Assembly (NCBI GenBank): GCA_040755755.1
Contig: JBFLZW010000078.1
Location: forward strand, 1 to 64,000
Source of the DNA: a bacterium
GTDB taxonomy: Bacteria > SZUA-182 > DTGQ01
Direction of reading: 5' to 3'
DNA length: 64,000 nt
Shown: positions 1,231-51,504 of the stretch, piece by piece
Numbering within the stretch: position 1 is the stretch's first letter
Layout: every line of letters begins with the position of its first letter
The notes under the pieces: generated by a model
Told to the model about the DNA's origin: nothing
Databases searched by the model: none
Seen by the model: only the letters and a program-made list of their open reading frames with translations
Made by a program: the position numbers and the translations under genes

Positions 1231-1236
1231 GAAAAG

Positions 1237-10527: not shown

Positions 10528-10618
10528 GACGAGAGATATTAATGCTTGCGAAATTTGTGCGCTCACCGATGCGAGACATGAGCATTATTCATAAAGTGAT
10601 TTTTTCTTCCACTTTGAG

Positions 10619-10675
10619 TTGACAAATGAACTCAGGTATTAGTAATATTATTATGAACACTCCGATTAGAGTGTT
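10619..10675 (+). promoter_or_regulatory. Likely sigma-70 promoter and dyad upstream of pstS
   Basis: TTGACA at 10619-10624 and TAATAT at 10643-10648 are 18 bases apart. Downstream is a dyad AACACTC-N6-GAGTGTT (10656-10675), with a further GAGTGTTA copy just after, that could bind a regulator. No clear Pho box was recognised, so phosphate control is assumed only from the genes. Confidence 0.5.
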
Positions 10676-10724
10676 ATGAGAGTGTTAAGAATAAACCTTA
10701 ACCGTAACCGTCAGGAGGAACATT

Positions 10725-11756
10725 ATGAACAGGAAATCAGGAAATTCAGGGAAATCGGCACAGAAAGTATTCGGCAGCATACTGGCTGCGGCTTGTATTT
10801 TTGGCCTTATCATTGCTTTGGCGAGCGGGGCCAGGTCAGGAGAGCCGGTTATTGATCCCAAAGAAGGGGAGTTGAAGGGCACCATCGCTGTCTCAGGGGC
10901 CTGGGCGCTGTATCCTATGGCCGTCAAATGGGCTGAGGAATTTCAGAAGATCCATCCCAAGGTGAAGATTGATATCGCCGCTGGCGGTGCGGGTAAGGGG
11001 ATGGCCGATGCTCTGGCCGGAATCGTGGATATCGGCATGGTTTCACGGGATATTCATCCGGCGGAGATTCAGAAAGGTGCTTTTTGGATCTCGGTGGTCA
11101 AGGATGCGGTTGTTCCGACGATCAACGAACGGAATCCGCTCCTGAAAGATATCCTGGCCAAGGGCGTCAGGAAGGAAGCCCTTGCCGGTATCTGGGTAAG
11201 CGGAACGATTAAGACCTGGAGCGAGGTTATTGGCGGCAGGATGGCCGGTGATAGCAGCAAGGATGCCATTCATGTCTATACCCGGTCCGATTCCTGCGGA
11301 GCAGCGGAAACCTGGGCCCAGTATCTGGGAAAAAATCAGGAAGACCTTCTGGGTATCGGAGTTTACGGCGATCCTGGACTGGTTGAAGCGGTCAGCAACG
11401 ATGCTCTGGGCATCGGTTATAATAATATCAATTATGCCTATCAGGCCAAGAATAAAGCGCAGGTCAAAGGGATCCGCGTACTGCCGATCGATATCAACGG
11501 CAATGGCCGTCTGGATGAGGATGAAAATTTTTACCAGGACCGGGATGCCATAGCCAAAGGCATAGCCACCGGAAAATACCCTTCCCCGCCTGCCAGGAAC
11601 CTGCATTTCGTTTCTCAGGGCAAACCGAAGACGCACCTGGTCACTGCCTTTATGACCTGGGTCATGACTGACGGGCAAAAATTTGTTCCCGAAGCAGGCT
11701 ACATCAACCTGTCCCCGGAGAAAATCCGGGAAGAGCTCCAAAAGCTTGAAAGGTAA
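10725..11756 (+). CDS. pstS: Phosphate ABC transporter substrate-binding protein
   Basis: A periplasmic phosphate-binding protein of 343 residues that would deliver phosphate to PstCA. A GGAGGA Shine-Dalgarno precedes the ATG. The signal peptide spans residues 1 to about 37 (cleavage near ARSGE). The PBP-like family pattern is visible: TIAVSGAWALYPMAVKWAEEF at the N terminus of the mature protein, AAGGAGKGMADALAG, then DIGMVSRDI, and YTRSDSCGAAETW in the second lobe. An insert near residues 250-265 (DINGNGRLDEDENF) looks like a calcium-loop-type stretch that most PstS proteins lack. It is the first gene of a complete pstSCAB operon; no phoU follows. Confidence 0.88.
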   Translation: MNRKSGNSGKSAQKVFGSILAAACIFGLIIALASGARSGEPVIDPKEGELKGTIAVSGAWALYPMAVKWAEEFQKIHPKVKIDIAAGGAGKGMADALAGIVDIGMVSRDIHPAEIQKGAFWISVVKDAVVPTINERNPLLKDILAKGVRKEALAGIWVSGTIKTWSEVIGGRMAGDSSKDAIHVYTRSDSCGAAETWAQYLGKNQEDLLGIGVYGDPGLVEAVSNDALGIGYNNINYAYQAKNKAQVKGIRVLPIDINGNGRLDEDENFYQDRDAIAKGIATGKYPSPPARNLHFVSQGKPKTHLVTAFMTWVMTDGQKFVPEAGYINLSPEKIREELQKLER

Positions 11757-27483: not shown

Positions 27484-27496
27484 GATGAATAATTTG

Positions 27497-27558
27497 AACC
27501 ACGAAACACACGAAAAGCACAAAAAAATACTTTCGTGTATTTCGTGTGTTTCGTGGTT
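27497..27558. repeat. CACGAAA-type palindrome between tamB and the Omp85 gene
   Basis: The 19-base arms are perfectly complementary: AACCACGAAACACACGAAA at 27497-27515 and TTTCGTGTGTTTCGTGGTT at 27540-27558. A frame open from 27485 would translate it as NHETHEKHKK, a peptide commonly produced when this repeat is read by accident. In RNA it would make a stable intercistronic hairpin that could alter the ratio of TamB to Omp85 translation. Confidence 0.75.
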
Positions 27559-27598
27559 AATATTCTTTTTTCAGCCCAGAAAGAAGCCAGGATTTGAA

Positions 27599-34783: not shown

Positions 34784-36334
34784 ATGATCATGCCCCGGCC
34801 CTGGGTTATCGCAGTGAGTTTACTTGTGCTCTTCCTCTCCATCAAATCCGGCACCTGGACAGCAGTATCCAGCTCCATCGACCGGGCAGCGGCATCCGTC
34901 CGAATGGCATACAATCCCGGCGACAGCACGCCATCATTCTCCCCTGGCGACCGCATAGCCCCATCCATCCTCGCACCATCCCCCTCAACAACCGCCCCCA
35001 CCCCCCCCTCCGCCCGCGCACCATCCAGCCGCAGGCGTGAAGTCCCTGTCCATCAGAAAGCTGGCTTTCGCCTCAACGAGAGCCATACGAAAGTCGGCTG
35101 TACTGCCTGTCATCCCAAACGGCAGCGCACGGGGGGGAAGGAAAACGCGGGGAAGAAGAAGGAGAATTGCGGATTCTGCCACGGTTTTCAGCATGATCTC
35201 CCGGCAGGATTGACCTGCACGATGTGTCACTCCCTGGAGTCTTTTTCCCGGATTAATGATTATCGGCATCTTCTCAATGACTTCTGGCGGGTCGGGGTGC
35301 ATAGGACGCTCTCCTGCCGTGAGTGTCATCCTGACCTGCGATTCAAGGGGACACCGCGAGAGTGCGTTTATTGCCACGTGGAGAGAAGGCAGGATGCTCC
35401 TCCTCCTCACGGGCTGAAGCTGGGCAATGATTGCCAGCAGTGCCATTCTCCGTATGGCTGGCAGCCGGTAAAGTTCCAGCACCCAGGATTTATCCTGGGG
35501 CCGGCCCATCGAAGCCTGAACTGTCTGGATTGCCATCCGGGCTATGAGTTTACCAATGTCCAGCCCTATTGCTATAGCTGCCATAAACGGGAGTTTCACG
35601 GCCTGGCCGGGTTTGATCATGCCGCAGCCGGGCTGCCCTACGATTGCCGCAAGTGCCATAGTCTGTACGCTTTCACCGCCCCGGTCTCCTACCGCGACCA
35701 CCAGTCCGGGCTCATCACCCAGGGAAGACACAAGAGCGCAGCCTGTCTGGATTGCCATCGGCAGCGGGTCTTTTACGGGCTCAGCGGAGAGTGCCGGAAC
35801 TGTCATCAAAAGGACTATAACGCTGCAAAAAACCCGAACCATGCATCCAGCGGCTTTCCCCTTGACTGTACGCTATGTCACGAGTCCACCGATTTTTCCT
35901 GGGAAAGCGGCTGGAAAGACCACCTGTGGTGGCCGCTCCAGGGTATGCACGCACTCCAGAGCTGCATCGATTGCCACCGGGACGGTGTTTATGCAGGAAA
36001 GAGCCCGCTCTGTGTGAGCTGCCATCAATCCGACTATGCGGGAGCAAAAGAGCCGGACCACCAGGCAATCGGATTGCCGACCAGTTGTGATCAGTGTCAC
36101 CGGGACAGTCATACCTCCTGGAATCAGGCCACCTTCAATCATCCCTTGCCCCTGACCGCTCAGCATGCCGGTATCGGCTGCACGGAATGTCACAAGGAGC
36201 CGGGCAATTTCGCCGCTTTTGTCTGCACGGATTGCCATCTGCGTCAGAACACAAGTCCCCTTCACCGGGGGGTGAGCGGATATAGCTATGACAGTCAATC
36301 CTGCTATTATTGCCACCCTCAAGGGCAGAGCTGA
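34784..36334 (+). CDS. 18-heme c-type cytochrome
   Basis: A 516-residue exported cytochrome. A signal or anchor helix (PRPWVIAVSLLVLFLS) is followed by a Pro/Ser/Thr-rich linker to about residue 90. The remainder holds eighteen CxxCH motifs by my count, beginning with CTACH, CGFCH and CTMCH and ending with CTECH, CTDCH and CYYCH. The hemes come in pairs in repeating units of about 50 residues, with H-x-x-L-x-C-x-x-CH and F-x-H patterns that supply distal histidines. This suggests a long heme wire in the periplasm. The next gene, 17 bases downstream from its preferred start, encodes an outer-membrane barrel, so the pair may pass electrons across the outer membrane, as porin-cytochrome systems do. 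Confidence 0.88.
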   Translation: MIMPRPWVIAVSLLVLFLSIKSGTWTAVSSSIDRAAASVRMAYNPGDSTPSFSPGDRIAPSILAPSPSTTAPTPPSARAPSSRRREVPVHQKAGFRLNESHTKVGCTACHPKRQRTGGKENAGKKKENCGFCHGFQHDLPAGLTCTMCHSLESFSRINDYRHLLNDFWRVGVHRTLSCRECHPDLRFKGTPRECVYCHVERRQDAPPPHGLKLGNDCQQCHSPYGWQPVKFQHPGFILGPAHRSLNCLDCHPGYEFTNVQPYCYSCHKREFHGLAGFDHAAAGLPYDCRKCHSLYAFTAPVSYRDHQSGLITQGRHKSAACLDCHRQRVFYGLSGECRNCHQKDYNAAKNPNHASSGFPLDCTLCHESTDFSWESGWKDHLWWPLQGMHALQSCIDCHRDGVYAGKSPLCVSCHQSDYAGAKEPDHQAIGLPTSCDQCHRDSHTSWNQATFNHPLPLTAQHAGIGCTECHKEPGNFAAFVCTDCHLRQNTSPLHRGVSGYSYDSQSCYYCHPQGQS

Positions 36335-36351
36335 AAAAGGGAAGGGGTGAT

Positions 36352-37728
36352 ATGGGGAAGAGAATAATTACCCTGTCCGGCTTCCTGATCCTCATAACCC
36401 TTGCGGGAGCTTTGCGGACACTGTGCCTGGCTGCTGAAGTTGAAGCGCAAGCGCCAGCCCAAGCCCATTCTCAAGCTCAAACTCACGGAGAGAAGATTAA
36501 ATTTCGCGGCCAGATGCGGGCGGATTTTTCCCAATATTCGTATGAAGGGGCAGGGGATGGCAGGTGGCAGGCGGGTACGCGGTTCATGCTGAAGTCGGTT
36601 CGGCTTCCGGTCGAAGGGCTGGGGATGGAGACAGACTTTCGGTATCGGTATTACAACAGCGAGTGGAAGCGCAGCCTGAAGGCCCTGTATGAAATGGCGG
36701 TTTTTCACCGTCCGTCCGCTGAGGGCATCTATTGGAAAGGAGGGCGGTTCAACCTCTATGATCTTTCCGGCATCGGTGAGCTGGATGGTGTGGCCGCAGG
36801 GTGGAGCTTTTCCCGGAATTTTCTTGGCGGCCTGTACCGGGGATCGGAGCCGGACCTGACTGAAATCAAGACAGACACTGATTACCGGAAGACCGGCTTA
36901 TTCCTCAATTACCACCAGCCGGGCGGGTTTCAGGCCATTGGTTCCTGGAATCAGATCACCTATGCCGGGCTGCGTGAGCGGACGTTTCTCTATGACCAGC
37001 TCTTTGTGCCGCTCTGGAAAAGGATCTACTGCTACCAGCATGCGGAGTACGAGCTTGGACCGCAGACAGAAGACCAGTTGAGCCGGTTTTTTTTCAACGG
37101 CCGCTTTGATCTGAACCGATCCATCTCCATGACCGGCTCGTATTACCAGGGGAAAGGGTATGATTATCACCGGATGCTCCTTGAGAAAACCAAGGCCGGG
37201 CTAACACCCGCCACCGAAGATCTTGAGCCGTATTACTGGTATCAGGACCTTGGCTTTCGGCTCAGCGGAAAACCAACGCAGGGACAGCGGATCAGCGGCC
37301 ATATCTCAGTGGCCCAAAGGGAGAGGGGAGGGGACATTTTACCGCGCTGCGGGGTCAGCTATTTTATCGATGGGCTGCCGGGAGGGCTGCTCGGAGAAAG
37401 GGTAGGGGGGGGAGTGAACTTCAGCCGGTGCATTGAGGCTCAAACCATCGGAAGCCGCCGGGGAGCGCAAACCCGCAGGGACATGCTCTCCCTTGAAATG
37501 AATAGTGAGCTGAAGGACTGGCTCACCGTAAGCCTTGGCTATACCAATTATACCTTTCAACTGGTGGAGGAAGGGACCGAGATTATTTCTCCTCCTGATT
37601 CCAGCGAATATGAGCTTGGCTTTTCTGCCCGGGTCAGCCGGAAATTCCTGATATACGGCTCTACCCGCTATAGGGTGGATAACTATAATTCCTGGCAGAA
37701 TTACCTGTCACTGATATACCGGCTGTAG
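36352..37728 (+). CDS. Outer-membrane beta-barrel, probable partner of the 18-heme cytochrome
   Basis: A 458-residue protein with a signal peptide (GKRIITLSGFLILITL to about CLAAE), a short Ala/Gln-rich stretch, and then amphipathic strands to the end (FRGQMRADFSQYSYEG, MLKSVRLPVEGLGMETDFRY, SGYTNY-like strands, finishing YLSLIYRL). This alternation and the aromatic end strands are those of a barrel of perhaps 20 strands. The ATG at 36352 follows AAGGGG closely and is preferred over the one at 36310. There is no CxxCH. Adjacent to a multiheme cytochrome, it fits the MtrB/PCC-porin role: a sheath for the cytochrome through the outer membrane. It is not obviously homologous to MtrB (no N-terminal CxxC was seen). 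Confidence 0.7.
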   Translation: MGKRIITLSGFLILITLAGALRTLCLAAEVEAQAPAQAHSQAQTHGEKIKFRGQMRADFSQYSYEGAGDGRWQAGTRFMLKSVRLPVEGLGMETDFRYRYYNSEWKRSLKALYEMAVFHRPSAEGIYWKGGRFNLYDLSGIGELDGVAAGWSFSRNFLGGLYRGSEPDLTEIKTDTDYRKTGLFLNYHQPGGFQAIGSWNQITYAGLRERTFLYDQLFVPLWKRIYCYQHAEYELGPQTEDQLSRFFFNGRFDLNRSISMTGSYYQGKGYDYHRMLLEKTKAGLTPATEDLEPYYWYQDLGFRLSGKPTQGQRISGHISVAQRERGGDILPRCGVSYFIDGLPGGLLGERVGGGVNFSRCIEAQTIGSRRGAQTRRDMLSLEMNSELKDWLTVSLGYTNYTFQLVEEGTEIISPPDSSEYELGFSARVSRKFLIYGSTRYRVDNYNSWQNYLSLIYRL

Positions 37729-39342: not shown

Positions 39343-39360
39343 TTTATTTTGACAATACTG

Positions 39361-39396
39361 AAAAAAATCAGGGTCATTGCCGACCCTGATTTTTTT
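39361..39396. terminator. Rho-independent bidirectional terminator
   Basis: A run of seven A, then ATCAGGGTC, loop ATTGCC, GACCCTGAT and a T-run: arms at 39361-39375 and 39382-39396. It ends the Pro-rich protein transcript and isolates the operon that begins at 39556. Confidence 0.88.
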
Positions 39397-39555
39397 TATT
39401 TCCTAACCGCTGAGAATGTCGTATAGTCATAGCACTTATGTCGCTTTTTTTACCATAATTGCATGATCATATTGCTATTATCGCCAGGATTTGTTATCAT
39501 ATCGAAATAACGGTAATGAAATCCTTTCATATTCACAGGGTTCAATAAGACATCG

Positions 39556-42500
39556 ATGAGAAGTAGTGCTCCCGGCATCATTTACAGCAGGATAAGATTA
39601 TTCCTTATCTTGCATTTTCTCCTCGCCCTCCCCTGCTCCCTGGTGTCGATCAGCCATCCTGATGCCGGGGAATGGCGTGTTCCCGAATTCAACCTGCAAG
39701 GAACAGCCCCCAATACCCCCGCCGTCCAGGTTGGAGAGCTGAAAAAATCCATTGATTCAACTGCCAATCAATTAGTCCGGAACATGACAGCATCCTCTTC
39801 CCTGCCTGCTGACCGCTGGATCACTCTTCTTCTGCGCAATTCGTCCTCTTCCGACTTTATTCTGACTGATATTGTCACCAAACTTGGCCGGAAATTGACT
39901 CACTATAACTTCTGTCTTGAAGATTCCGGCATTTTTCACCGGAATACCGTTAAAAAGTTTGCCATCTCGGATATCCCGAACGGGAGGAATGAGCTTTTCA
40001 TCACTTTTTTGCTGCAGGAGCTGTCAGATAGCGGCAGCCAGGATGGAAAGATCACGGCGAAGAGAAAGGGGCCGGGGGGAACAGCTCCCCTGAAAGGCTG
40101 CTCTCTGCTTTCCGACTCCCGCTGCCTGCATAAAAAACCGCTCGTCGATACGAGAGTGGTCAAAAAATGCTCCTTCCGTTTTTCCTGGCCAGGAGAGCAG
40201 GCCCTCTCGAAAGTCATTATTTTCGATGACAGCAATGCTCCTCAGATTCAGGACATGCCGACGCAAAGCCTGGAGGTAGCCAGAGGGCTTTTTCTCAATC
40301 AGGATTACCTCGCCTGCCTGTGGAATCTGAGCAACTTTTTCAAAGAGTCTGCCAGCCTGCCGAAAAATCCTGCGGGCCGGACTTTGGATGATCGTGCAGG
40401 TCAAACCTCGACTGTCGATTTTCAAGCCCTCATGGCCGAGGCTTCCTTCCTCAGGGCAGAATGCTTTCTCCACCTTGAAATGTATGCTGAGGCAATTTCC
40501 GCCTATCAGGAAGTGCGGAAAAAGTTTCCCCGGAGCGATTATTACCACCTGTCTCTGCTCCACCTTGAAATGGCTCATTATCTGGCAGGCCACTACAGCC
40601 AGGCCGTCATTGATTTCGAGCAGTTTGACTCCCTGGCAGGAGACAGGATTCTTGATCCTGCCCGCTATATTGCCGCTAGATCCCTGTATCAGGAAAAAAA
40701 GTTTACTCAAGGGGCCAATCTTCTCCGCCGTATTTCTCCCGCTTCACCCTGCTTCCTGCCAGCACGGTATTTACAGGCGCTTTGCCATCTGGCGGTCCGG
40801 GAAAACGATGCTGTGGTGGAGGATCTGGAAGCCATCATTCATCTCCCCTCCCCTGCCGCCATTCCCGCATCCGGTATGGAGGAACTGCAGATCATTCTGG
40901 GATCTGAAAGTCTGAATGCCGGGCACCTGGTCCAATCAGCGCATCTTCTTCTTGGCAGGCTGTGGTACCAGGAGAAGGAATATGAGAAATCCCTGAAGGA
41001 GTTTGATGCAATTTCGGCCAAGAGCCCTCAGTACCTGTCGGCCCTTATCGGAAAAGGACTGATTTTTCTTCAACTGCGACAGGAAGAGAAGGTGAGGAAA
41101 ATTCTCGATGAATTGACTCCCCAGGGTCTTGAAAGCAGATTCCTCTCGGATGCCCGCTTCAGTCTGGCTGACAACCGGCAAAAGACGGGCAGGTACCGGG
41201 AAGCTTATGCCCTGTATCAGGAGTCGATACACCAGTGCCGGGAAGGTCTTGCAGCCATCGGGAACCTTCAAAAGGATCAGCAGTATCTGGACAACCTGCT
41301 GCGCTTTGTCCTCGATGCCCGAAAGCCCCGATCATCTTCGCCGACTCCATCCCTGACGGCCATGGTTCCGCCGACTTCCTGGATCTATCAGGAAGTTGCC
41401 GACATACTCTCTTCACAAGGCAGCCTGTCCTGCTGGCATGATCTTGAGAGGATGGAGAAAGTCCTTCAATCCATGAGAAGTCTGCTCCTTGCGCCGGAAC
41501 CCGGTTATCCGGAGAAGATCAAGGGCTTATCCCGGCTCATGGCCCGGCCCGAAGAGATAACCGAAGAGATGAAAGGGGCGCACGGGGAGGATCCCTCATC
41601 CCCGGCTGATCCCAATCAGCCGGAGCTTGAAAAAATCAGGCAGGCGGCTTTTCGGGAAATTGTCAATCGGGAAAACCGATTCGGGCTGGTCAGGGAGGCT
41701 GTCATCACCCGGTTGAAAAGCGATATTCAGGAAGCCCTGGGCATGATCAGCCATCGGCTCTCTGAAATTCATGACCGGGCATGCCTTGAAATCGAACATG
41801 CAGCCCTTCAGGAAAAATTATCAACCCCAGATGAAAAATCCCTGGCTGCCCTGAAAAAAGTCATGACTACCCATGAGTCTTTTATCAACCGGTATCCGCA
41901 AAGCCCGTATCTTGAAAAGATCCTTTTTCAACTGGCCGAGTACTCGTATCTCCATGCTTCTCTTGATTACCAGCGGATGCTCAGGGCTGTGGAAGGAAGC
42001 AAAAATCCGGCTGATTTTCTTCTGGAAACCAGACCGAACTTCGATCAGGCCATTAAGCTTTACGAGAGGATACTTTCTCAGTTTCCCCACGGTCGCTATA
42101 CGGAAAAAACCCTGTATGCCCTGGCCTATACCTACCAGGAGCAGGGGGCGATCATTCTGGCCAGGAGTGTTTTCCAGCGCCTGATCCAGGATTTTCCCGA
42201 TACCTCCCTGGCAACCGAAGTCCAGGTCCGTCTGGGAGAAATCTTCTTTGACGAGAACAAGTTCGCTCAGGCTGCCGAGTATTACGACCGTGCGGTAAAG
42301 TCGGGAAGACTCCCCGGACAGTATCGGAACAATGTTCTTTACAAGCTCGCCTGGTCCTTCTACAAACAGAGTCAGGACCACAAGGCCCTGGAATTATTCA
42401 TCTTGCTGGCAGACGAATATGCACGGAGCAATAATAATCTTCTGCTGAAGGAAATGATCTACCAATTGGCTAAAATGGGCAGTGAGTATGATTCCCTGGA

Positions 42501-44853
42501 AAAAGTCACAAAGCTTTTATCGCCTGTCGAGGAGAAGAGCTACCACTTTCAGGTTGTGAAGACCATGGCCGACATTTTATTCAATGAGGAAAGATTCAGG
42601 GAGGCTATCGAGGCCTACCGCCGGGTAATAGACCGCTACCCCCTTAATGCCGAAGCTCCGGTCTTTCAGGCCAGAATCGAACAGTGCTGCCTCAAGCTGG
42701 CCGATCCCAAAGCAGCCAATGCAGCCAGGGAGCACCTGGTGCTCAACTACGGAGAAAACACTCCCTGGTGGGACAATAACCGGGATGAAGCCATCAGGAA
42801 ACAGGTGTCGTTGCTCATCGATGAGTCCATCCGCAATTCCACCCTGTATCTGATGGAATCGACGGACGAAAAGGATTATCAGGAACTGATCAGATTCTAC
42901 CGGCAGAATCTGAATCGCTTTCCCAGTGCGGAACAGGTTTATACGATCGGCTTTCTGCTGGCCGAATGCCTCTATAAAACCCGTCAGTATGAGCAGGCCA
43001 TCGCCGAATACAGCCAGGTTGTTCAGAATAAGGCGTTCAGGAAATTTACCGAGGATGCAGCCTACAAGAAGATCATCTGTCTCGAAAAGCTGATAGAGCA
43101 CAAAGCCCCTGCCGGGACTCAGCAGCAGGGACCTGCGCCGGAAGGCAAGGCAGCGGGAATAAAACCGGAGGACTGGAGCCCGGAAGAAAAGCAATTCCTG
43201 GCTGCCTGCGATCATCTGATGCAATCTTTCCCCAAAAATGTGCATCTGCCGGAAGTGCTCTACAAAAAGGGAGAATTATACCTGACCAAGGGTCAGCCGC
43301 AAAAGGCGATCGACACGTTCGACTACCTGATTCAGCATTTTCCTGAGAGCGATATTCGCCCGTCAGCCTTGAAAATGCTGGCCAAGGCCCGCTTCAACCA
43401 GGAGAAATTCGAACTGGCTGCCAGGGTATATTCCGAGATCGTGGCTGACTGTGACCAGAAATTGAAGGGCAGGGAAGATGCCGAGGTTGTATCGGCCCGC
43501 AGAAATGCCTATAAAATGATGGCCCTGTCGAGCTATAAAGAGGCCGAGCTTTTGACCAGGGAAGGAAAACCCATCGAGGCTGCACAAAAGTTCGAGGCCA
43601 CGGCGGATGAGTTTCCCCGCGAGCAGATTGCTGACCTGGCCCTGTTCGAGGCAGCCAGGATTTACCAGGCTCAGGGTCAGCCCCAAAAAGCCCATCAGAT
43701 TTTCGAACGGATCCTGGAACAATACCCCGGCTCGGAATATGCTCCGCAGGCACTCCTTTTGATCGCTCAGGAACAGGAGAAAAACCGGCAGCTTGCCGAA
43801 GCCGCCCGGAATTACGAAAGGCTGTACCGAGACTATCCCCGGTTTTCAGGGTCCGGCAAAGCCCTCTACAGGGCGGGAAGATTATTTGAAGAGGTTGAGG
43901 ATTGGGCTAAAGTCATCACCATATTCAGCCTCTATCAATCCGATCTTCGCCCTGATCCGGCCCTGGCCCTTGAAGTCAACTTCCGCCGGGGATATGCTCT
44001 CATGAAAAGCGGCGGCAATACTCAGGCTGAAGCGGCCTTTCAGGTTGTTCTCGATACCTATGAGCGGTATAAGGCGCAGGATGATACGCTCAAACCGTAC
44101 TACCCCGCCTGGGCCCGGTTCCTCATCGGTGAGATGTCCTTCGAGGCCTATGACAAGGTCAGATTGCAGGACAGCAGCGACCGGGGGATGAAACCAAAAC
44201 TGGATATGCTGAAAAAAGTGCTCGAAAACTATACCAAAGCCACTGATTTTAAAATCGCCGAATGGGCTATTCAGGCTATTTTCAAAATGGGGCTGGCTAT
44301 GGATAAATTCGCTGAGGAGCTTGGGGATTTTTCAGCAGGTCAATCATCGGAAGAGCTGCCAAAAGACGAAGCTTCTTACCTGCTCAATATTCAACTCCAG
44401 ATGAAGATTATCGAATTCCTGGAAAAGGCCGGAATGTTTTACCGGCAAAATATCCAACTGTCAGAACACAATAATATACAAGATGATACCTGGATAGCCA
44501 AATCGAAAGAGAATTTTACTCGAGACTATTGGCTGGCAGGGCAGCGGTATGAAAAAATCTATTCGCTCATCAAAGATGCGCCGGTTCCTGACTCCCTCGA
44601 TGAAGAGCAGGTCAAAAGTTACCGGCAGGCACTTCTGGAAAAGGCTCTGCCCTATCAAAGTCAGGCTGCCGAGATGTATGCTAAAAATACTCAGGCATCT
44701 GCCTTCCGGATCGAGTATAATTCCTGGATAGGGCAATCGTACCAGAGACTGGCTATTGTGAGACCTGAAAGATACCGGCGGGACGAAGAACGGCCGCTGG
44801 CCGAGAGTCGATCACGATTCAGCCTTCCTGAGCAGCTCCTGTTGAGAGAATGA
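39556..44853 (+). CDS. Giant periplasmic TPR protein, first gene of the ExbBD/AgmX operon
   Basis: A 1765-residue protein with an N-terminal signal or anchor (RLFLILHFLLALPCSLVS) and a long array of tetratricopeptide repeats covering most of residues 230-1500. Many repeats have the YbgF/BamD-like form (for example LYERILSQFPHGRYTEKTLY, and QAAEYYDRAV). A Ser/Pro region and a coiled-coil segment (about 680-750) interrupt the array, and a helical domain without clear repeats closes it. Such proteins act as scaffolds in the periplasm; the huge TPR protein of myxobacterial gliding clusters (AgmK/GltI) is a functional parallel, not a proven homologue. Five to six genes follow in tight order. The ribosome site is weak (AAGAC). 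Confidence 0.8.
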   Translation: MRSSAPGIIYSRIRLFLILHFLLALPCSLVSISHPDAGEWRVPEFNLQGTAPNTPAVQVGELKKSIDSTANQLVRNMTASSSLPADRWITLLLRNSSSSDFILTDIVTKLGRKLTHYNFCLEDSGIFHRNTVKKFAISDIPNGRNELFITFLLQELSDSGSQDGKITAKRKGPGGTAPLKGCSLLSDSRCLHKKPLVDTRVVKKCSFRFSWPGEQALSKVIIFDDSNAPQIQDMPTQSLEVARGLFLNQDYLACLWNLSNFFKESASLPKNPAGRTLDDRAGQTSTVDFQALMAEASFLRAECFLHLEMYAEAISAYQEVRKKFPRSDYYHLSLLHLEMAHYLAGHYSQAVIDFEQFDSLAGDRILDPARYIAARSLYQEKKFTQGANLLRRISPASPCFLPARYLQALCHLAVRENDAVVEDLEAIIHLPSPAAIPASGMEELQIILGSESLNAGHLVQSAHLLLGRLWYQEKEYEKSLKEFDAISAKSPQYLSALIGKGLIFLQLRQEEKVRKILDELTPQGLESRFLSDARFSLADNRQKTGRYREAYALYQESIHQCREGLAAIGNLQKDQQYLDNLLRFVLDARKPRSSSPTPSLTAMVPPTSWIYQEVADILSSQGSLSCWHDLERMEKVLQSMRSLLLAPEPGYPEKIKGLSRLMARPEEITEEMKGAHGEDPSSPADPNQPELEKIRQAAFREIVNRENRFGLVREAVITRLKSDIQEALGMISHRLSEIHDRACLEIEHAALQEKLSTPDEKSLAALKKVMTTHESFINRYPQSPYLEKILFQLAEYSYLHASLDYQRMLRAVEGSKNPADFLLETRPNFDQAIKLYERILSQFPHGRYTEKTLYALAYTYQEQGAIILARSVFQRLIQDFPDTSLATEVQVRLGEIFFDENKFAQAAEYYDRAVKSGRLPGQYRNNVLYKLAWSFYKQSQDHKALELFILLADEYARSNNNLLLKEMIYQLAKMGSEYDSLEKVTKLLSPVEEKSYHFQVVKTMADILFNEERFREAIEAYRRVIDRYPLNAEAPVFQARIEQCCLKLADPKAANAAREHLVLNYGENTPWWDNNRDEAIRKQVSLLIDESIRNSTLYLMESTDEKDYQELIRFYRQNLNRFPSAEQVYTIGFLLAECLYKTRQYEQAIAEYSQVVQNKAFRKFTEDAAYKKIICLEKLIEHKAPAGTQQQGPAPEGKAAGIKPEDWSPEEKQFLAACDHLMQSFPKNVHLPEVLYKKGELYLTKGQPQKAIDTFDYLIQHFPESDIRPSALKMLAKARFNQEKFELAARVYSEIVADCDQKLKGREDAEVVSARRNAYKMMALSSYKEAELLTREGKPIEAAQKFEATADEFPREQIADLALFEAARIYQAQGQPQKAHQIFERILEQYPGSEYAPQALLLIAQEQEKNRQLAEAARNYERLYRDYPRFSGSGKALYRAGRLFEEVEDWAKVITIFSLYQSDLRPDPALALEVNFRRGYALMKSGGNTQAEAAFQVVLDTYERYKAQDDTLKPYYPAWARFLIGEMSFEAYDKVRLQDSSDRGMKPKLDMLKKVLENYTKATDFKIAEWAIQAIFKMGLAMDKFAEELGDFSAGQSSEELPKDEASYLLNIQLQMKIIEFLEKAGMFYRQNIQLSEHNNIQDDTWIAKSKENFTRDYWLAGQRYEKIYSLIKDAPVPDSLDEEQVKSYRQALLEKALPYQSQAAEMYAKNTQASAFRIEYNSWIGQSYQRLAIVRPERYRRDEERPLAESRSRFSLPEQLLLRE

Positions 44854-44863
44854 GGGAGATTCC

Positions 44864-45895
44864 GTGACAAAGACAAAGGCAAAAACAAAGGCAAAGACAA
44901 GGAAACCACAGAGACACAGAGACACAGAGGGGAACAGGGTATTATTGTCTGTGTGCCTGTATGTCTTTGTGGCTGCCTGTATTCTTGTGAGCGGATGCGG
45001 GAAGGCTGCGCTGAAAATCCAGAGCCCGCTGGGAAAGGGCATCTACCAGGCCAATCTTCTCTATCAGGATGCCAACTATCAGGAATGCCGCCGGGTATTG
45101 GAAAGCCTGCTGCCTGCCTATCCCGACGATCCTCACCTGCATTACAATCTGGGACTGACCTATGCGCGACTGAATCTGTACAGCCAGGCCAGAGATGAAT
45201 ACCTGAAGGCTCTGAGGCAGAAGGGAGGGAACATTTCCCAGATTCATCAGGGGCTTGGAGACCTGTACCGGCAGCAGCGCCTCTACACCAAAGCCATTCT
45301 TGAATATCAGCGGGCGCTGACCCTGATGCCTGATTCGATAGAGGCCATGATCCACCTGGCCGGTACCTACGAAGAAACGGGCAAGATAGAACTGGCTGTT
45401 AAAGAATATAAAAGCGCTCTCCGGGTTAAAGCACTGCCTGAGATTTACCTGAATTTAGGCAATATTCACTATAAGTTACGGCAATATGAAGAGGCTATAT
45501 CTGTATATCAGAAGGCCCTGCGCATGGACCCGAACCGGGTGGAGGTGTATAATAATTTAGGGCTGGCCTTGGAGAGGAAGGGAGATTCGCAGGAAGCAGC
45601 AGCATGGTATCAGAAAGCCATCAGGCTCGATAGCCGTTTCCTTCCGCCCTATATCAACCTTGGGGCATTTTACCGGTCAGCCGGAAAATACGATATGGCC
45701 AGGGAACAATACTTGCACGCTTTGAAACTTAAGCCCGATTGCCTTGATGCTGTGTTAAACCTGGGTATTTTATATGACCTCTACCTCGCTGATCCGCAGG
45801 AGGCCATAAAAAACTATCGGCAGTATTGTCAGGGGGGCGGCCCCAGGTCTTCGGAGGTAAAACGATGGATCGAAAATCTTCAGTCCGGGAAATAA
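44864..45895 (+). CDS. TPR lipoprotein whose signal peptide is encoded by a palindromic repeat
   Basis: A 343-residue lipoprotein. The GTG at 44864 has AGGGAG nine bases upstream. Residues 1-20 are extremely basic (KTKAKTKAKTRKPQRHRD), residues about 25-37 hydrophobic (LLSVCLYVFVAACIL), and VSGC with Cys45 or nearby gives the lipobox. Residues about 58-340 are seven or eight TPRs of the O-GlcNAc-transferase type (LGDLYRQQRLYTKAILEYQRAL; NLGLALERKGDSQEAAAWYQKAI). A dispersed palindrome (44904-44974) is read in frame and encodes both halves of the signal. It lies 10 bases after the giant TPR gene and overlaps the cytochrome start by 31 bases. It resembles GltE/AglT-like TPR lipoproteins in role. 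Confidence 0.8.
   Translation: MTKTKAKTKAKTRKPQRHRDTEGNRVLLSVCLYVFVAACILVSGCGKAALKIQSPLGKGIYQANLLYQDANYQECRRVLESLLPAYPDDPHLHYNLGLTYARLNLYSQARDEYLKALRQKGGNISQIHQGLGDLYRQQRLYTKAILEYQRALTLMPDSIEAMIHLAGTYEETGKIELAVKEYKSALRVKALPEIYLNLGNIHYKLRQYEEAISVYQKALRMDPNRVEVYNNLGLALERKGDSQEAAAWYQKAIRLDSRFLPPYINLGAFYRSAGKYDMAREQYLHALKLKPDCLDAVLNLGILYDLYLADPQEAIKNYRQYCQGGGPRSSEVKRWIENLQSGK
44904..44974. repeat. In-frame CACAGAG-type palindrome
   Basis: The left arm ACCACAGAGACACAGAGACA (from about 44905) and the right arm ending ATGTCTTTGTGGCT (to 44974) are complementary over about 27 positions with some six mismatches. It is the same family as 4031-4090, 6591-6633 and the debris at 54555. Here it is coding. 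Confidence 0.65.
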
Positions 45896-46749
45896 TTGCT
45901 CCGGGTGTGGCAGTGAGTCTTGTTATGATCATGCTCGCTTGCATCCTCCTCTGCCTGCAGGCCGATGCGGCGGCATCAGAAACACCTTCTGCCCCCTCTG
46001 CTGCCGAACTGCCTGATATCAGTTCCGAGAGGATCGACATGGAGGAGATGAAAATTCAGGGAACCATTGACAAGCCCAACATCATGTATGTTATTCCCCG
46101 TGCCAGGATCGAGATTGAAATGAAATTGAACGATGACTACTTTCTCCTCTCATCCGCCGACCCCAATATGGCGGCGATCAGGCATGATCTGGAATTTCAG
46201 CCTGTTGAGAAGAAAACAGCATCTCCTGCCGAGCCGATCCCCCCCTCCCCTCTCCCGGCATCCTTTTTTTTCATCCAAAGGCCAGAGATCAACGCCGGGA
46301 GCTGTGTTTCCTGCCACTATCCCGGAATGGACATTCCCAAAGGCAGCTCCACACCGCTCCTGCTTCAGGAGCTGAATCAGAGATGCCTCCAGTGCCATCC
46401 TGCCCGCTACTATCATATCTGCTGGAGAGAGGTTGAGAAGACGGCCTTTCAGTCTCCTGACCAGAGTGAAAACAGTTGCCAGAAATGCCACACCCCCTGG
46501 ACCCAGCCACCGGGAACACGGACACAGGATGGAAAGACAAAGGGGAGCCGGATGAAATGGCAGTGGAGTCAGTGGACGCAGCCAAAGGAAGACTCCTGGC
46601 GGGGAACACGGACGTATTGGCAGTGGGCTCAACCCAGGGAATCCTGGCAGCCCAGGAAAAAGCAAGATACTACGAGTGAGGAATTATCGGAGAAAAAAAA
46701 TGATATCGACACCTTCTGCATTACCTGTCACAAACACGACGAGAGATGA
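45865..46749 (+). CDS. Membrane-anchored tetraheme c-type cytochrome with Trp-rich insert
   Basis: A 294-residue protein with an N-terminal helix (VAVSLVMIMLACILLCLQ) that anchors or exports it. The ATG at 45865, with GGAGG seven bases ahead, is preferred over a TTG at 45826. Heme motifs are CVSCH (147-151), CLQCH (174-178), CQKCH (205-209) and CITCH (285-289). Between hemes three and four there are eight tryptophans in about 50 residues (KWQWSQWTQP, then YWQWAQP), an odd, repetitive, positively charged stretch. The start lies inside the end of the TPR lipoprotein gene and ExbB follows after 13 bases. A cytochrome in the middle of an ExbBD operon suggests a redox input or a redox-dependent assembly role; that is inference. 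Confidence 0.82.
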   Translation: MDRKSSVREIIAPGVAVSLVMIMLACILLCLQADAAASETPSAPSAAELPDISSERIDMEEMKIQGTIDKPNIMYVIPRARIEIEMKLNDDYFLLSSADPNMAAIRHDLEFQPVEKKTASPAEPIPPSPLPASFFFIQRPEINAGSCVSCHYPGMDIPKGSSTPLLLQELNQRCLQCHPARYYHICWREVEKTAFQSPDQSENSCQKCHTPWTQPPGTRTQDGKTKGSRMKWQWSQWTQPKEDSWRGTRTYWQWAQPRESWQPRKKQDTTSEELSEKKNDIDTFCITCHKHDER

Positions 46750-46762
46750 TAAGGAGAGGTAA

Positions 46763-47389
46763 ATGAGCATCTTACAACTTATCAAGCTGTTCTTCATCGA
46801 GGGCGGTTTTTTCATGTACGCTATCCTGGCAGCTTCGATTTTTGGCCTGGCGATTATCTTTGAACGATTCTACAAGGTTGGGTTCCGGTTTAGAATCAGC
46901 TCCGAGAGGTTTATGGCCAGAATATTTGCGCACCTTAAGGCTCAGGAAATCGAGCAGGCCATTCAACTGTGCAGCCAATCACAGGCCCCGCTTCCGATCA
47001 TCATCAGGGCAGGGCTGGAAAAACATAATCAGAGTGAATCAGAGATACAGAATGCCATTGATGAAGCCACTCTGGAGCAGTTGCCCCGCGTTTCCCGAAG
47101 AACCGAATACCTCAACCTGATCGCCAATATTTCTACCCTGATGGGACTTTTGGGAACCATTCAGGGTCTTATTCAGGCCTTCCATGCCGTCAGTCACGTG
47201 GATGCGGCTCAAAAAGCCACCATGCTGGCAGGAGGAATCGCCATGGCTCTGAATACTACAGCCTTTGGTCTGATAGTCGCTATTCCCTGTATGGTCAGCT
47301 ACTCCATCCTCAATTCCCTGTCAGACCGGATACTTGACGATATTGACCAATTCTCCCTGAAATTGATTAATTTCCTGAAGCAGCACTAG
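46763..47389 (+). CDS. MotA/TolQ/ExbB proton channel family protein
   Basis: An inner-membrane channel protein of 208 residues that would pair with the ExbD-type proteins to turn proton flow into work. Three helices are seen (FFMYAILAASIFGLAIIFE at the N terminus; ANISTLMGLLGTIQGLIQAF; AFGLIVAIPCMVSYSIL). The conserved TM2/TM3 block, GLLGTIQGLIQAF then GGIAMALNTTAFGLIVAIP, is typical for the family. A GAGAGG site lies upstream. The gene sits between the cytochrome and two exbD-like genes. Confidence 0.92.
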   Translation: MSILQLIKLFFIEGGFFMYAILAASIFGLAIIFERFYKVGFRFRISSERFMARIFAHLKAQEIEQAIQLCSQSQAPLPIIIRAGLEKHNQSESEIQNAIDEATLEQLPRVSRRTEYLNLIANISTLMGLLGTIQGLIQAFHAVSHVDAAQKATMLAGGIAMALNTTAFGLIVAIPCMVSYSILNSLSDRILDDIDQFSLKLINFLKQH

Positions 47390-47417
47390 GTTACGGTAAA
47401 CAAGAATAGGATCTGTC

Positions 47418-47900
47418 ATGCCCCGGTTGATTGAAAAAAAGCGAAAAGTAAATAAAACCATAGAGCTTTACCTGACTCCGGTCATGAATATCTTTCTCAA
47501 TATCATCCCCCTGCTCCTGGTGACGGCTGTTTTTATTCAGACTTCGGTAATCAATCTCTCCCTCCCCTCCCAAACTGCCGGTTCAGCTCCGGCCCAAAGT
47601 CAGGTAGCGGATGGGGCCAATGCCAGGAAACCGAAACAGCTCCTCATTTTGTCGATTGCTGCCAGGGGATTTTATCTTATTCTTGGTGACAAGCTCCTGA
47701 AGATTATCCCTAAAGGAGATAACTACGACTTCGATAAACTCGAAGCTATCCTTCGGAAAGTCAAGGAGGCGTTTCCTGAGCAGGAAAGCATTGTCATCGA
47801 ATCGGAAGATGATATCATCTATGACCATCTTATTCATACTATGGACAGATGCCGGGCCTGCGGCCTGGTGGACATTGTCCTTTCGGCGAGTAAAAACTGA
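47418..47900 (+). CDS. ExbD/TolR-like protein 1, with Asn in place of the channel Asp
   Basis: A 160-residue protein with the ExbD layout: a basic N terminus (RLIEKKRKVNKTIELYLTP), one membrane helix (NIFLNIIPLLLVTAVFIQ) and a periplasmic domain with the final YDHLIHTMDRCRACGLVDIV, close to the usual YxxVIxxMDxxRxxGxxxI. In ExbD and TolR the helix starts LTPxxDV, and its Asp is needed for proton transfer; here that place is Asn24 (LTPVMNIF). It may be a structural subunit paired with the second ExbD, which keeps the Asp. Confidence 0.82.
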   Translation: MPRLIEKKRKVNKTIELYLTPVMNIFLNIIPLLLVTAVFIQTSVINLSLPSQTAGSAPAQSQVADGANARKPKQLLILSIAARGFYLILGDKLLKIIPKGDNYDFDKLEAILRKVKEAFPEQESIVIESEDDIIYDHLIHTMDRCRACGLVDIVLSASKN

Positions 47901-47928
47901 GTGAACAGTGGTCAGTGAACAGTGGTCA
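47901..47928. repeat. 14-bp direct repeat between the two exbD genes
   Basis: GTGAACAGTGGTCA occurs twice in a row (47901-47914, 47915-47928), right after the stop of the first exbD. Related words appear at 22795-22810. Confidence 0.6.
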
Positions 47929-47951
47929 GTAATAAGGAGAAAACAGCTTAC

Positions 47952-48473
47952 ATGGCTAACGAGAAGAGCACAAGCAGAGCGATTGTCCGACGACGCCTGG
48001 CCAGGGCCAGACGAAAGCGGGATGCCTTTGTTCGCCTGACTTCCCTGATCGATGTCTTTACCATCCTGTTATGTTTCCTGATCAAGAGTTTTTCAGCCAG
48101 TCCGGAAGTTACTCTGATAGCTGAAAATCTCCAATTGCCGGTTTCAACCGCAACTCAATCTCCGGAAGTCGCAACTACTGTTTCCGCCACCCGCGAGGCT
48201 GTGCTCCTGAACGGTGAATTTGTCGATACCATCGAGAATTTCAGATCGCAAAAAGAAATGCTGAATTCCAGATTATACGAAAAATTAATTCAGGATAAAG
48301 AAAGGTTTCTCCTGATTGCCCGGGAAAATCCTGGTCAGCTCAAGTTTCGGGGGAAAATCATTATTCAGGCAGATAAAAAAATTCCGTATCAGGTTATCAA
48401 GAAGTTGATTTATACCAGTGGACAGGCAGAGTTTGGGAAAATTTCTCTTCATGTTCTTCAGAAAGAGACATAA
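47952..48473 (+). CDS. ExbD/TolR-like protein 2, with the conserved Asp
   Basis: From the ATG at 47952 the product has 173 residues; a GTG at 47922 in the direct repeat would add ten. The N terminus is strongly basic (RRRLARARRKRDAFVRL). The single membrane helix begins LTSLIDVFTILLCFLIKSF with Asp34 in the position needed for proton transfer. The periplasmic part ends in IPYQVIKKLIYTSGQAEFGKI, as in ExbD proteins. It is likely to form a heterodimer with the Asn-containing partner within the ExbB pentamer. Six bases separate it from the transducer gene. Confidence 0.85.
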   Translation: MANEKSTSRAIVRRRLARARRKRDAFVRLTSLIDVFTILLCFLIKSFSASPEVTLIAENLQLPVSTATQSPEVATTVSATREAVLLNGEFVDTIENFRSQKEMLNSRLYEKLIQDKERFLLIARENPGQLKFRGKIIIQADKKIPYQVIKKLIYTSGQAEFGKISLHVLQKET

Positions 48474-48479
48474 ATAATC

Positions 48480-50228
48480 ATGGCGTTCCAATCGAAAAGG
48501 GTGACTGGTGCCCAGCAGCCCGATACGGCCCAGAAAGAAAAAAAGCTGGTTCTGCAGATTCATCTGCTCAGAGAGCCGGGTGATGGCGAAAAAGTGCTTC
48601 TCAATAAATCATCGGTCACTGCCGGTTCTCAACCAGCCAATGATCTGGTCATTCCCTGCCCGCTGAAGAGATTCACTTTTCTGAAAAAAAGGCGAAGTGG
48701 TGGCTATGAGCTTTTTATTCCCGGAGAAATGACCGGCATCATCGGTCATCCTGACCAGACAGATACGGTCTCTATCGACAGTCTCCGGAACCTCAATCTG
48801 CTGCCCCGGAAAAATCAGGGTCATACCCTTTTTCTGCCTGTGGGGAACAGGGCCGAGCTTTCCTATGGAGGCGTGCGCCTCGATCTGGGATACGTACCGG
48901 AGCCGCCCCCTCCACCCCGCAGCAGGGAGGAACAGGCGTCGGAGGACGTTCTGGAACATGGTTTTCTCGAAGGCGACCAGAAGGGTTTCTGGACCATGTT
49001 TCTTCTTTCCCTCTGCCTTCATGTATTATTCATCCTGTACGTGTACATGGCTCCTCTGCCTCCTCCCTCTCAGGAGCAAACTACGGCAGCGGAAATTCCG
49101 GAGCGGCTCGTCAGGCTGATACTCAAGGAGGAAGAGAAGCAGAAGGATATTCAGGCCAGCAGGCTCCTGAAAGAGGAAAAAAAGGCCGCTCCGCTCACCC
49201 AGCCCCCGGTGCAAAAGACCAGTCCGCCGGTCAAAGAAGCCAAACCCGCTCAGCAGCCAGCCCAAAAGGCTCAAATCAAGCCCAGGCAGGCTGAATCCTC
49301 TTCCGGCAAAGACAAGCCTCGACAAAAAACAGCCCAATCTGTATCCTCCTCCGGAGCCTCCGGAGAACCAAAACCCTCTCTGGTTGCCTCAACAGATGGA
49401 ACCACAGCAGCCAAAGATGGAGGATCAGATGTGCTCAGGCAGGGCGAAGGGCAAACTTCCGTCTCTTCACCGGAAAAGAAAGTTGACCTCAACTCGATCG
49501 GCATTCTGGGCATGATTTCATCCCGTCAATCATCCCGCTCTCCATCCTCCCCAGGCATTGATTCCCAGCTTAACCTTCTGGCTAAAAATGCGATCAATAG
49601 TGGAAAAACCCTGGTCAGGCAAATCGAAAAATCCTCTCCGCCATTGCAGGCCTTTACCGGCGAGGGATTGAATGATGAGCTGCCCCTCGGAGACGGGGAA
49701 GGCGGTGAGGAACCTGGAAATGCCCATGATGCCGGAAAGGGAACCGAAGGGAAAAAGGCCAAAGAGGCAGAAAAATCCAGATCAAAAACTTCATCATCAG
49801 CATCATCAGCCAAAAAGGTAGATGATCTGGTGGCCATGCACCAGCAGACCGACACCGTAGAGCTTCCGGTCAAGGGTGATCTTGCCCTCCAGAAGATCGT
49901 CGATGTTAAAACTTCAGGACCGAAAAGCCAGTTTCGTACCCCGCAGGCCATTCTCGAAGTGGTGTCATCTTATAAATCCAGCATTATCCATTGTTACAAC
50001 AAGGCACTCAAGGTATATCCCAGGCTGGAAGGCAGGCTGGTGGTCGAATTTACGATCACTGCACAGGGGGAGGTTGTTGACGTAAAAGTTGTCTCCTCTA
50101 CCCTGCCCAGGTTCGACTCCGGCCTGGATGCATGCGTGACCAATATGATCCAAAGCTGGCGTTTTGCTTCGATTCCAGTGGGTATAACTACCGTGGTCTA
50201 TCCCTTCGTGTTTTTCCCTGCCATGTAA
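48480..50228 (+). CDS. AgmX/PglI-type energy transducer (TonB-like)
   Basis: A 582-residue protein that would carry the ExbB/ExbD force to the outer membrane. Residues 1-150 are a cytoplasmic beta-rich domain (FHA-like in look: LVIPCPLKRFTFLKKR, then LFIPGEMTGIIGHPD, then LSYGGVRLDLGYVPEPPPPP). One membrane helix follows (FLLSLCLHVLFILYVYMA), then a long Pro/Lys/Ser-rich periplasmic spacer. The final 100 residues (AILEVVSSYKSSIIHCYNKA to VVYPFVFFPAM) have the AgmX/PglI C-terminal pattern, with the two conserved cysteines and the W-x-F-x-x-x-P block. AgmX is known from Myxococcus gliding. It ends the operon. Confidence 0.85.
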   Translation: MAFQSKRVTGAQQPDTAQKEKKLVLQIHLLREPGDGEKVLLNKSSVTAGSQPANDLVIPCPLKRFTFLKKRRSGGYELFIPGEMTGIIGHPDQTDTVSIDSLRNLNLLPRKNQGHTLFLPVGNRAELSYGGVRLDLGYVPEPPPPPRSREEQASEDVLEHGFLEGDQKGFWTMFLLSLCLHVLFILYVYMAPLPPPSQEQTTAAEIPERLVRLILKEEEKQKDIQASRLLKEEKKAAPLTQPPVQKTSPPVKEAKPAQQPAQKAQIKPRQAESSSGKDKPRQKTAQSVSSSGASGEPKPSLVASTDGTTAAKDGGSDVLRQGEGQTSVSSPEKKVDLNSIGILGMISSRQSSRSPSSPGIDSQLNLLAKNAINSGKTLVRQIEKSSPPLQAFTGEGLNDELPLGDGEGGEEPGNAHDAGKGTEGKKAKEAEKSRSKTSSSASSAKKVDDLVAMHQQTDTVELPVKGDLALQKIVDVKTSGPKSQFRTPQAILEVVSSYKSSIIHCYNKALKVYPRLEGRLVVEFTITAQGEVVDVKVVSSTLPRFDSGLDACVTNMIQSWRFASIPVGITTVVYPFVFFPAM

Positions 50229-50337: not shown

Positions 50338-51504
50338 ATGAAAAACGCTGGATCCCAAGATACAGAAAAGCCATCGGGAATGGCCCATCTCATTACCCTG
50401 TTCTTCTGTGGTGATGTCATGACCGGCAGAGGCATTGATCAGGTGATGCCCTGCCCCAGTGACCCTATCCTCTATGAGCCATACATGACAGATGCCAGAG
50501 GATATGTGGAAATTGCCGAGGAGGCAAACGGCCCGATCCCCAAGCCTGTCAGCTTCTCCTATATCTGGGGGGATGCTCTCACTGAATGGGAACGGATGAA
50601 GCCGGACCTCAAGATAATCAATCTTGAGACCAGTATAACCGAAAGCGGCGATTACTGGGAGAGCAAGGATATTCACTATCGGATGAATCCGGCAAACATT
50701 CCCTGTCTGACAGCAGCCGGGATAGACTGCTGTGCTCTGGCCAATAATCACATTCTCGACTGGGGATATGCAGGTCTGGCTGAGACAGTGAGGACACTGA
50801 AAAGGGCCAGGGTGCACGGCACCGGAGCTGGCCGGAACCTGAAAGAGGCACAGAATCCGGCAGTGATGAAGGTCAGGGGCAAGGGAAGAGTAACGGTGTT
50901 CTCCTTCGGATCGCCAACCAGCGGAATACCGCTTGCCTGGGCTGCTTCTGAAGACAAGGCTGGTGTGAACCTGCTGAAAGACTTCTCCGGGGACACAGTC
51001 AGAGATATTCAGGAACAAATCCGGGAACTGAAGCAGCCGGGAGATATCGTTGTCGCCTCGATTCATTGGGGAGGAAACTGGGGTTATGAAGTTTCTCGTG
51101 AAGAGAGGGAATTTGCCCGCAAACTGGTCGATGAAGCGGGCGTTGACATGATTCACGGCCATTCCTCCCACCATGTGAAGGGAATAGAGGTCTATCGGGA
51201 TAAACTGATAACCTACGGCTGCGGCAATTTTCTGGACGATTATGAAGGCATCGGCGGCCATGAGGCTTTTCGTGATGATCTTGGCCTGATGTTTTTCGCA
51301 AAGCTTGATCCTCTGACCGGAAAACTTGCTTCCCTGCACATGACTCCGACGCAGATTAAAAATTTCAGAGTGAACCGGGCATCCGGAGCCGATGCACGCT
51401 GGTTAAGCGAGGTCCTGAACCGAGAAGGGAAAAAATTCGGGACAGCGGTGGAATTGAGCAGGGACAAGACTCTGATCCTCAGATGGCAGAAGACTGGAGT
51501 ATAA
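50338..51504 (+). CDS. CapA-family metallophosphatase-like protein
   Basis: A 388-residue protein of the CapA/PGA_cap family. The order of motifs is normal: FFCGDVMTGRG (residues about 22-32), IINLETSIT, CALANNHILDWG, VVASIHWGGNW, IHGHSSHHVKGIEVY and ITYGCGNFLDDYEG. CapA was named for poly-gamma-glutamate capsule production, but most bacterial relatives with the calcineurin-like fold have no confirmed substrate. Unlike CapA itself there is no membrane helix, so it is probably cytoplasmic. The start has only a weak ribosome site. It is separated from the AgmX operon by 110 bases. Confidence 0.88.
   Translation: MKNAGSQDTEKPSGMAHLITLFFCGDVMTGRGIDQVMPCPSDPILYEPYMTDARGYVEIAEEANGPIPKPVSFSYIWGDALTEWERMKPDLKIINLETSITESGDYWESKDIHYRMNPANIPCLTAAGIDCCALANNHILDWGYAGLAETVRTLKRARVHGTGAGRNLKEAQNPAVMKVRGKGRVTVFSFGSPTSGIPLAWAASEDKAGVNLLKDFSGDTVRDIQEQIRELKQPGDIVVASIHWGGNWGYEVSREEREFARKLVDEAGVDMIHGHSSHHVKGIEVYRDKLITYGCGNFLDDYEGIGGHEAFRDDLGLMFFAKLDPLTGKLASLHMTPTQIKNFRVNRASGADARWLSEVLNREGKKFGTAVELSRDKTLILRWQKTGV

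Follow-up and report, generated by a model that had tools for sequence, protein, structure and literature searches.

A predicted tetrahaem extension on the GltF-like subunit of an Agl/Glt-type operon

The stretch of DNA analysed here (the window) comprises 64,000 nucleotides, positions 1 to 64,000 of the forward strand of contig JBFLZW010000078.1 (assembly GCA_040755755.1), from a bacterium of the GTDB lineage SZUA-182. Between 39556 and 50228 it holds an operon of seven genes for TPR proteins, a tetrahaem cytochrome, one ExbB, two ExbD and a GltG-like transducer. Judged from its sequences, the machine encoded belongs to a type already described, the Agl/Glt core complex. According to Luciano 2011 (PMC3169522), this envelope machine occurs across phyla, its function is not known and it gave rise to Myxococcus gliding. 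What is new is the haem-bearing tail on the GltF-like subunit, a lineage-specific fusion. We consider the explanation as a whole, an Agl/Glt-type core complex with a tetrahaem GltF-like subunit, to be probable, and the anatomy of the complex to be as described here with high confidence.

The operon and its counterparts

The features of the locus are listed below; the slot is the gene position directly after the TPR lipoprotein gene, adjoining the motor or GltG genes.

39358..39402, + strand: intrinsic-terminator-like hairpin separating the operon from the upstream genes (minimum free energy -23 kcal/mol, z -8, T-run after the stem)
39556..44853, + strand: exported TPR protein of 1765 residues (profile matches, BLASTP)
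44864..45895, + strand: TPR lipoprotein in the GltE position (lipobox LVSG-C, TPR matches)
45865..46749, + strand: GltF/CglF-like slot protein with a predicted tetrahaem c-type C-terminal extension (core at about residues 55-85)
46022..46182, + strand: conserved GltF-like core RIDMEEMKIQGTIDKPNIMYVIPRAR with its flank, within the cytochrome gene (model of haem-free slot proteins, E 3.1e-11)
46303..46731, + strand: tetrahaem module with the motifs CVSCH, CLQCH, CQKCH and CITCH (invariant in three species)
46763..47389, + strand: ExbB/TolQ/AglR-type proton channel subunit (profile matches)
47418..47900, + strand: ExbD1, AglQ/AglS-type, Asn replacing the transmembrane Asp (profile and segment comparison)
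47922..48473 (or from ATG 47952), + strand: ExbD2, transmembrane Asp kept (profile and segment comparison)
48480..50228, + strand: GltG-like transducer with an FHA-fold domain, one transmembrane helix, a long linker and a TonB-type C-terminal domain (profile and model)

All seven open reading frames (ORFs) are on the + strand and tightly packed. Ten bases separate the 1765-residue TPR gene from the TPR lipoprotein gene, which overlaps the cytochrome gene by 31 bases if the latter starts at ATG 45865, most likely its start codon. The gaps that follow are 13 bases to ExbB, 28 to ExbD1, 51 to ExbD2 (21 if ExbD2 starts at the upstream GTG rather than at ATG 47952) and 6 to the GltG-like gene. The domain matches are to Paired_CXXCH_1 for the cytochrome (8.7e-7), MotA_ExbB for ExbB (8.8e-30), ExbD for the two ExbD genes (9.4e-18 and 3.6e-13) and the AgmX/PglI C-terminal domain for the last gene (NF033768, 6.3e-24). 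A preliminary description of this DNA had placed the same ORFs at the same coordinates, with these gaps and this overlap and with the same protein families, downstream of a strong terminator; ORFs, packing, domain matches and hairpin all agree with it.

The preliminary description had also proposed a search for this gene order across genomes, and the order does recur in several phyla. A search with ExbB of named metagenome-assembled genomes (MAGs) recovered the operon in MAGs labelled Nitrospinae, Nitrospirae and Deltaproteobacteria as TPR, TPR, TPR lipoprotein, small slot gene, ExbB, ExbD, ExbD and AgmX/GltG, with a close version of this order in Chitinispirillaceae and Fibrobacter. In these other phyla the product of the slot gene is exported, is ~100 residues long and lacks CxxCH. 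The genomes of the window's own family considered here are the window genome (G000), a congener (G001), a species of another genus (G003) and a fourth genome (G002). The congener locus (L012; its slot protein and the one of G001 are identical) shows the same seven-gene order, and its slot protein has four CxxCH. The operon of G003 is spread over two contigs (L075 and L080), and no slot protein is detectable in G002. A chance association of the genes is excluded because the whole order is kept in the congener, and the haem-free order in several phyla.

A GltF-like protein with a haem-bearing extension

Haem-free slot proteins share a core such as IKVEGTVEKPRVIFIIPRSKLW, with IQGTIDKPNIMYVIPRARIE as its counterpart in the window protein (phmmer 4e-6 to 4e-4), and a hidden Markov model built from haem-free slot proteins alone has the window cytochrome as its sole match among the 446 window ORFs, at E 3.1e-11. 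Core and four CxxCH are retained in G001 and G003, where identity is 61% and 42% in the stretch that matches (58% and 38% in the full alignment). A genuine glt cluster (L076) was fetched from a genome whose GltG reaches full score (1033 bits); its GltE (771.8 bits) and its GltF/CglF (131.7 bits, the cut-off for CglF being 90) are, like GltG, above cut-off. CglF and GltF are the same protein (PMC4488436). A slot profile built without GltF detects the GltF of genuine clusters, at 2.2e-6 in the first and 7.4e-6 in the second, and the CglF family (NF033764) matches 13 of 31 slot proteins; GltF and the slot proteins are thus, by homology, one family. Luciano 2011 (PMC3169522) assigns gltF to Group A, which is confined to Myxococcales and Bdellovibrionales, whereas we find haem-free GltF/CglF relatives in the same slot across many lineages (L076, L077, L095 and the slot loci). 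GltF thus looks like a core part of the complex that is not specific to myxobacteria. An unnamed additional gene, mentioned in the same source for the core operon of other bacteria, may, we infer, be the one that encodes the slot protein.

The cytochrome is therefore identified, by homology and position, as a conserved GltF-like subunit bearing a haem tail, not as an extra gene inserted into the operon; the haem-free slot family in the same position rules out an accidental neighbour. To the preliminary description the cytochrome lay outside the known gene sets, which holds for the haem tail but not for the slot, a standard GltF/CglF-like part.

Slot proteins were surveyed in ~860 genomes in total. 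They are present in 57 of 386 genomes of a first batch, where 75 of 88 slot proteins adjoin TPR, ExbB/ExbD or GltG genes as judged from the short stretch retrieved, in 4 of 77 genomes from the phylum of one Nitrospinae copy and in 27 of 395 from the phylum of the Deltaproteobacteria copy. With duplicates removed and E <= 1e-3 required, 114 distinct slot proteins remain, and only those of the window, G001 and G003 have CxxCH; no haem-bearing slot protein was found outside the window's family in the ~860 genomes, the search having also covered other genomes of the window's class. With all three in one family, the haem tail looks like a single gain. The preliminary description had held that the link of cytochrome and operon would be accidental if homologous clusters usually lacked the cytochrome. 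Slot proteins without haem are indeed the rule (111 of 114), but the haem domain is fused to a subunit of the machine and kept in two genera, and the accidental link is not borne out.

In an alignment of the three species, the four CxxCH are invariant throughout, as are one additional His and a number of aromatic and acidic residues, and the block CHP-Y-H-CW-E-EK around the haem motifs is unchanged across the two genera. Between the window and its congener, nonsynonymous divergence (dN) is 0.20 in the region of haems 1-3 and 0.16 in the core and reaches 0.53 in the Trp-rich linker; synonymous divergence (dS) is 1.13 in the region of haems 1-3 and ~1.1-1.2, near saturation, in the haem region and core. 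With dN/dS ~0.18 in the region of haems 1-3 versus 0.14 in the GltF-like core, the tetrahaem domain is evidently under purifying selection. A Trp/Gln-rich stretch (KWQWSQWTQPKE, TYWQWAQP; window 46545-46680) separates haems 3 and 4 in the two congeners; G003 lacks it.

The window cytochrome has 294 residues and, by hydropathy and inspection, a single N-terminal hydrophobic segment ending ADAAA-S. This reads as a cleavable Sec signal, and the protein is more likely periplasmic than the membrane protein of the preliminary description. The features expected of a c-type multihaem protein are present: four invariant CxxCH, the export signal as judged by inspection and maturation genes, the genome encoding cytochrome c assembly proteins (PF01578, twice). 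After the signal there are three His outside the motifs for four haems, and only one of them (H184) is invariant, so that the sixth ligand of one haem or more is probably a residue other than His or comes from outside the protein.

Several observations weigh against the assignment of a haem-bearing GltF subunit. The window core fragment scores only 15.9 bits (E 0.0096) against CglF (NF033764), whose cut-off is 90, and the full protein is not listed; because the window protein itself scores so weakly, its homology to GltF runs through the intermediate slot proteins. The haem version is confined to three species of one family, in two genera, haem ligation is not predictable from a single invariant non-motif His, and AlphaFold gave an uninformative model of the cytochrome (mean predicted local distance difference test score 52). 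No structural relative of the cytochrome was detected in the PDB (phmmer E ~0.95, profile search ~0.16), and a literature search found no paper describing haem in such a cluster.

Transducer, TPR proteins and motor

The GltG-like protein scores 79.7 bits against the full-length GltG family, for which the cut-off is 650. Its AlphaFold2 model has an FHA fold at the N-terminus and a TonB-type domain at the C-terminus, with one transmembrane helix and a disordered linker in between, and the best PDB matches of the model are TonB C-terminal and FHA domains, with probability ~1.0 but E >= 3e-3. The first FHA domain of Myxococcus-type GltG is missing; the window protein aligns to the domain that follows it.

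The 1765-residue TPR protein is, by its matches, the product of two fused genes: residues ~790-1765 match GltD-type proteins, and residues ~270-590 match what is, in other core operons, a first TPR gene of its own. The BLASTP match to the GltD-position protein of a genuine glt cluster is at 7.8e-34, with a further match, at 6e-5, in a C-terminal stretch past the repeats; TPR similarity by itself would be weak evidence. The TPR lipoprotein reaches 66 bits against GltE (NF033758, cut-off 225) and other TPR families score higher, but lipobox and position fit. GltC (NF033756) has no match in the TPR proteins of the operon, and the first TPR gene was rejected as GltC, the family being without a match in the window, Nitrospinae and Nitrospirae copies. 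None of GltA, B, H, I, J or K was recognised among the seven genes of the operon, to which the search for them was confined.

The operon encodes one ExbB/AglR-type channel and two ExbD/AglQ,S-type proteins. ExbB is under the equivalog cut-offs, with 91 of 221 bits for TolQ and 55 of 206 for ExbB. The transmembrane Asp is replaced by Asn in the window ExbD1 and retained in ExbD2, an asymmetry that recurs in the core complexes among loci L013-L228 and the window: ExbD1 is without the Asp in 53 of 55 distinct segments (39 Asn, 12 Ser, 2 Cys) and ExbD2 has it in 47 of 47. The near-universal loss in one ExbD suggests motors with an asymmetric pair. In two genomes with genuine GltG, by contrast, both members of the ExbD pairs beside AglR-like genes have the Asp. 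The Agl/Glt likeness seen in the preliminary description is thus real homology, as judged from the architecture of GltG, the similarity to GltD, the GltF-like slot and the set of one ExbB and two ExbD.

Possible roles and relation to known systems

In the mechanism that we propose, an ExbB pentamer with its ExbD1/ExbD2 pair would be powered by the proton-motive force and would pull on or turn the GltG-like transducer, which would span the periplasm and act, with its TonB-like end, on an assembly of GltF-like, GltE-like and GltD-like proteins on the outer-membrane side. The tetrahaem tail would make this periplasmic partner of the motor redox-active in this family, and the haem domain would relay electrons or sense redox state beyond any structural role. 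Gene set and order, the homology of slot proteins and GltF, the restriction of haem and the constraint on its motifs, and the FHA/TonB architecture come from the present analysis; the contact of motor and GltG, the envelope localisation of GltF and its likeness to a TonB box come from the literature. Passages of PMC3169522 report contact of AglR and GltG in a two-hybrid assay and GltF and GltD at focal adhesions in Myxococcus, and a review cites resemblances between GltF and a TonB box and between GltG/GltJ and TonB (PMC9389320). The motor analogy is drawn because of the homology and these Myxococcus experiments.

A functional role of the haem domain at the machine, in passing electrons or in redox sensing, seems to us an even proposition. 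The more specific idea of a redox-coupled envelope motor, in which the tetrahaem GltF-like subunit gates the machine by redox state or serves as an electron carrier along the periplasmic linkage that is pulled, is tentative; if true, it would combine force and electron transfer in one complex. Somewhat less likely is a structural or vestigial graft, with the machine working as in its haem-free relatives and the tail adding bulk or stability. Such a graft would fit the 111 haem-free slot proteins, the few conserved candidate distal ligands and a second, haem-free Glt cluster kept in the same genome. This cluster, on contig 13 (L078, G000:C13:118000-137900; 913-11240 of the locus), encodes ExbB, ExbD, ExbD, a large TPR protein, a haem-free GltF-like protein of 117 residues (CglF 1.2e-4), GltG-like (1.6e-33) and GltC-like (NF033756, 1.7e-31) proteins and a myxobacterial-type barrel (TIGR04565, 2.5e-24). 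Because its GltF-like protein is haem-free, haem is, as far as gene content tells, specific to one of two Glt-type machines in the cell. Against a graft stand the four CxxCH and the CHP-Y-H-CW-E-EK block, invariant in two genera, and a dN/dS close to that of the core, and because of this constraint we favour relay or sensing over purely structural haem.

The preliminary description saw a proton-driven machine, perhaps one that puts surface electron carriers together or moves them; in this reading an 18-haem cytochrome and a barrel upstream would be its cargo. Proximity in the window speaks for this, as does G003, where a cytochrome b is encoded ~1.3 kb downstream of the operon together with a protein of five or more CxxCH (L080 4107-5742), an arrangement not seen in the window. 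The reading is nevertheless improbable: a terminator lies between the 18-haem cytochrome and the operon, haem-free relatives of the operon occur in many lineages, and the 18-haem cytochrome (34784-36334), which overlaps a 472-residue ORF without a Pfam match (36310-37728), has no detectable match in the three other family genomes. The proposed link to it is rejected on that ground, and this cytochrome is probably unrelated to the operon. Elsewhere in the window, a gene of PGA_cap capsule-synthesis type (50338-51504) lies directly 3' of the operon on the same strand, and a TamB-like gene is directly followed by one for an Omp85 protein with several POTRA domains (23416-30400).

Slightly more doubtful still is a gliding motor in this organism. 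The homology to Agl/Glt parts and the second cluster, with its GltC-, GltF- and GltG-like proteins and barrel, would agree with it, but GltA, B, H, I, J and K were not recognised in the operon, one ExbD is without the Asp that AglQ and AglS both carry, and the core complex alone is deemed insufficient for motility in passages of PMC3169522. A plain TonB or Tol-Pal system beside an unrelated cytochrome gene can practically be dismissed: the ExbB, ExbD and TonB-like domains are there, but the scores are far under the TolQ, ExbB and TolR cut-offs, the operon has no TolB or Pal, and the slot gene is conserved beside TPR, ExbB and GltG genes.

For the question of what the widespread Agl/Glt core did before gliding arose, a natural chromophore on GltF offers a handle, through colour and redox titration, on one of its most poorly understood subunits. 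Group B of Luciano 2011 (AglR, Q, S and GltC, D, E, G) forms, according to passages of that paper (PMC3169522), a single operon in non-gliding bacteria. The window operon shares with this core one ExbB, two ExbD, an FHA/TonB-like GltG, a GltD-like TPR protein, a TPR lipoprotein and the arrangement in a single operon; it differs in its tetrahaem GltF-like subunit, two fused TPR genes and no recognised GltC. From the complete Myxococcus gliding machinery it differs further in the Glt proteins not recognised and in the Asn of ExbD1. GltF/CglF of Myxococcus xanthus (89 residues, MXAN_4868) is likewise exported, has the core I-x-G-x-(I/L)-x-(K/R)-P and is encoded directly after GltE, whereas the window protein has 294 residues and four CxxCH, falls under the CglF cut-off and precedes ExbB rather than GltG. 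Doubled-CXXCH and cytochrome c7-type multihaem proteins have in common with the window protein four CxxCH and the Paired_CXXCH_1 match, but the window domain is fused to a motor-complex subunit and has one conserved non-motif His. In Fibrobacter succinogenes, TPR, ExbB, ExbD, ExbD and TonB-like genes also lie in one region, FSU_2397-FSU_2403, which is raised on cellulose; the relevant passages of PMC6851124 give no Glt-like description of it and report no haem. That a cluster of this kind rises on cellulose suggests, by analogy, that core complexes generally serve in transport at the surface or in the envelope.

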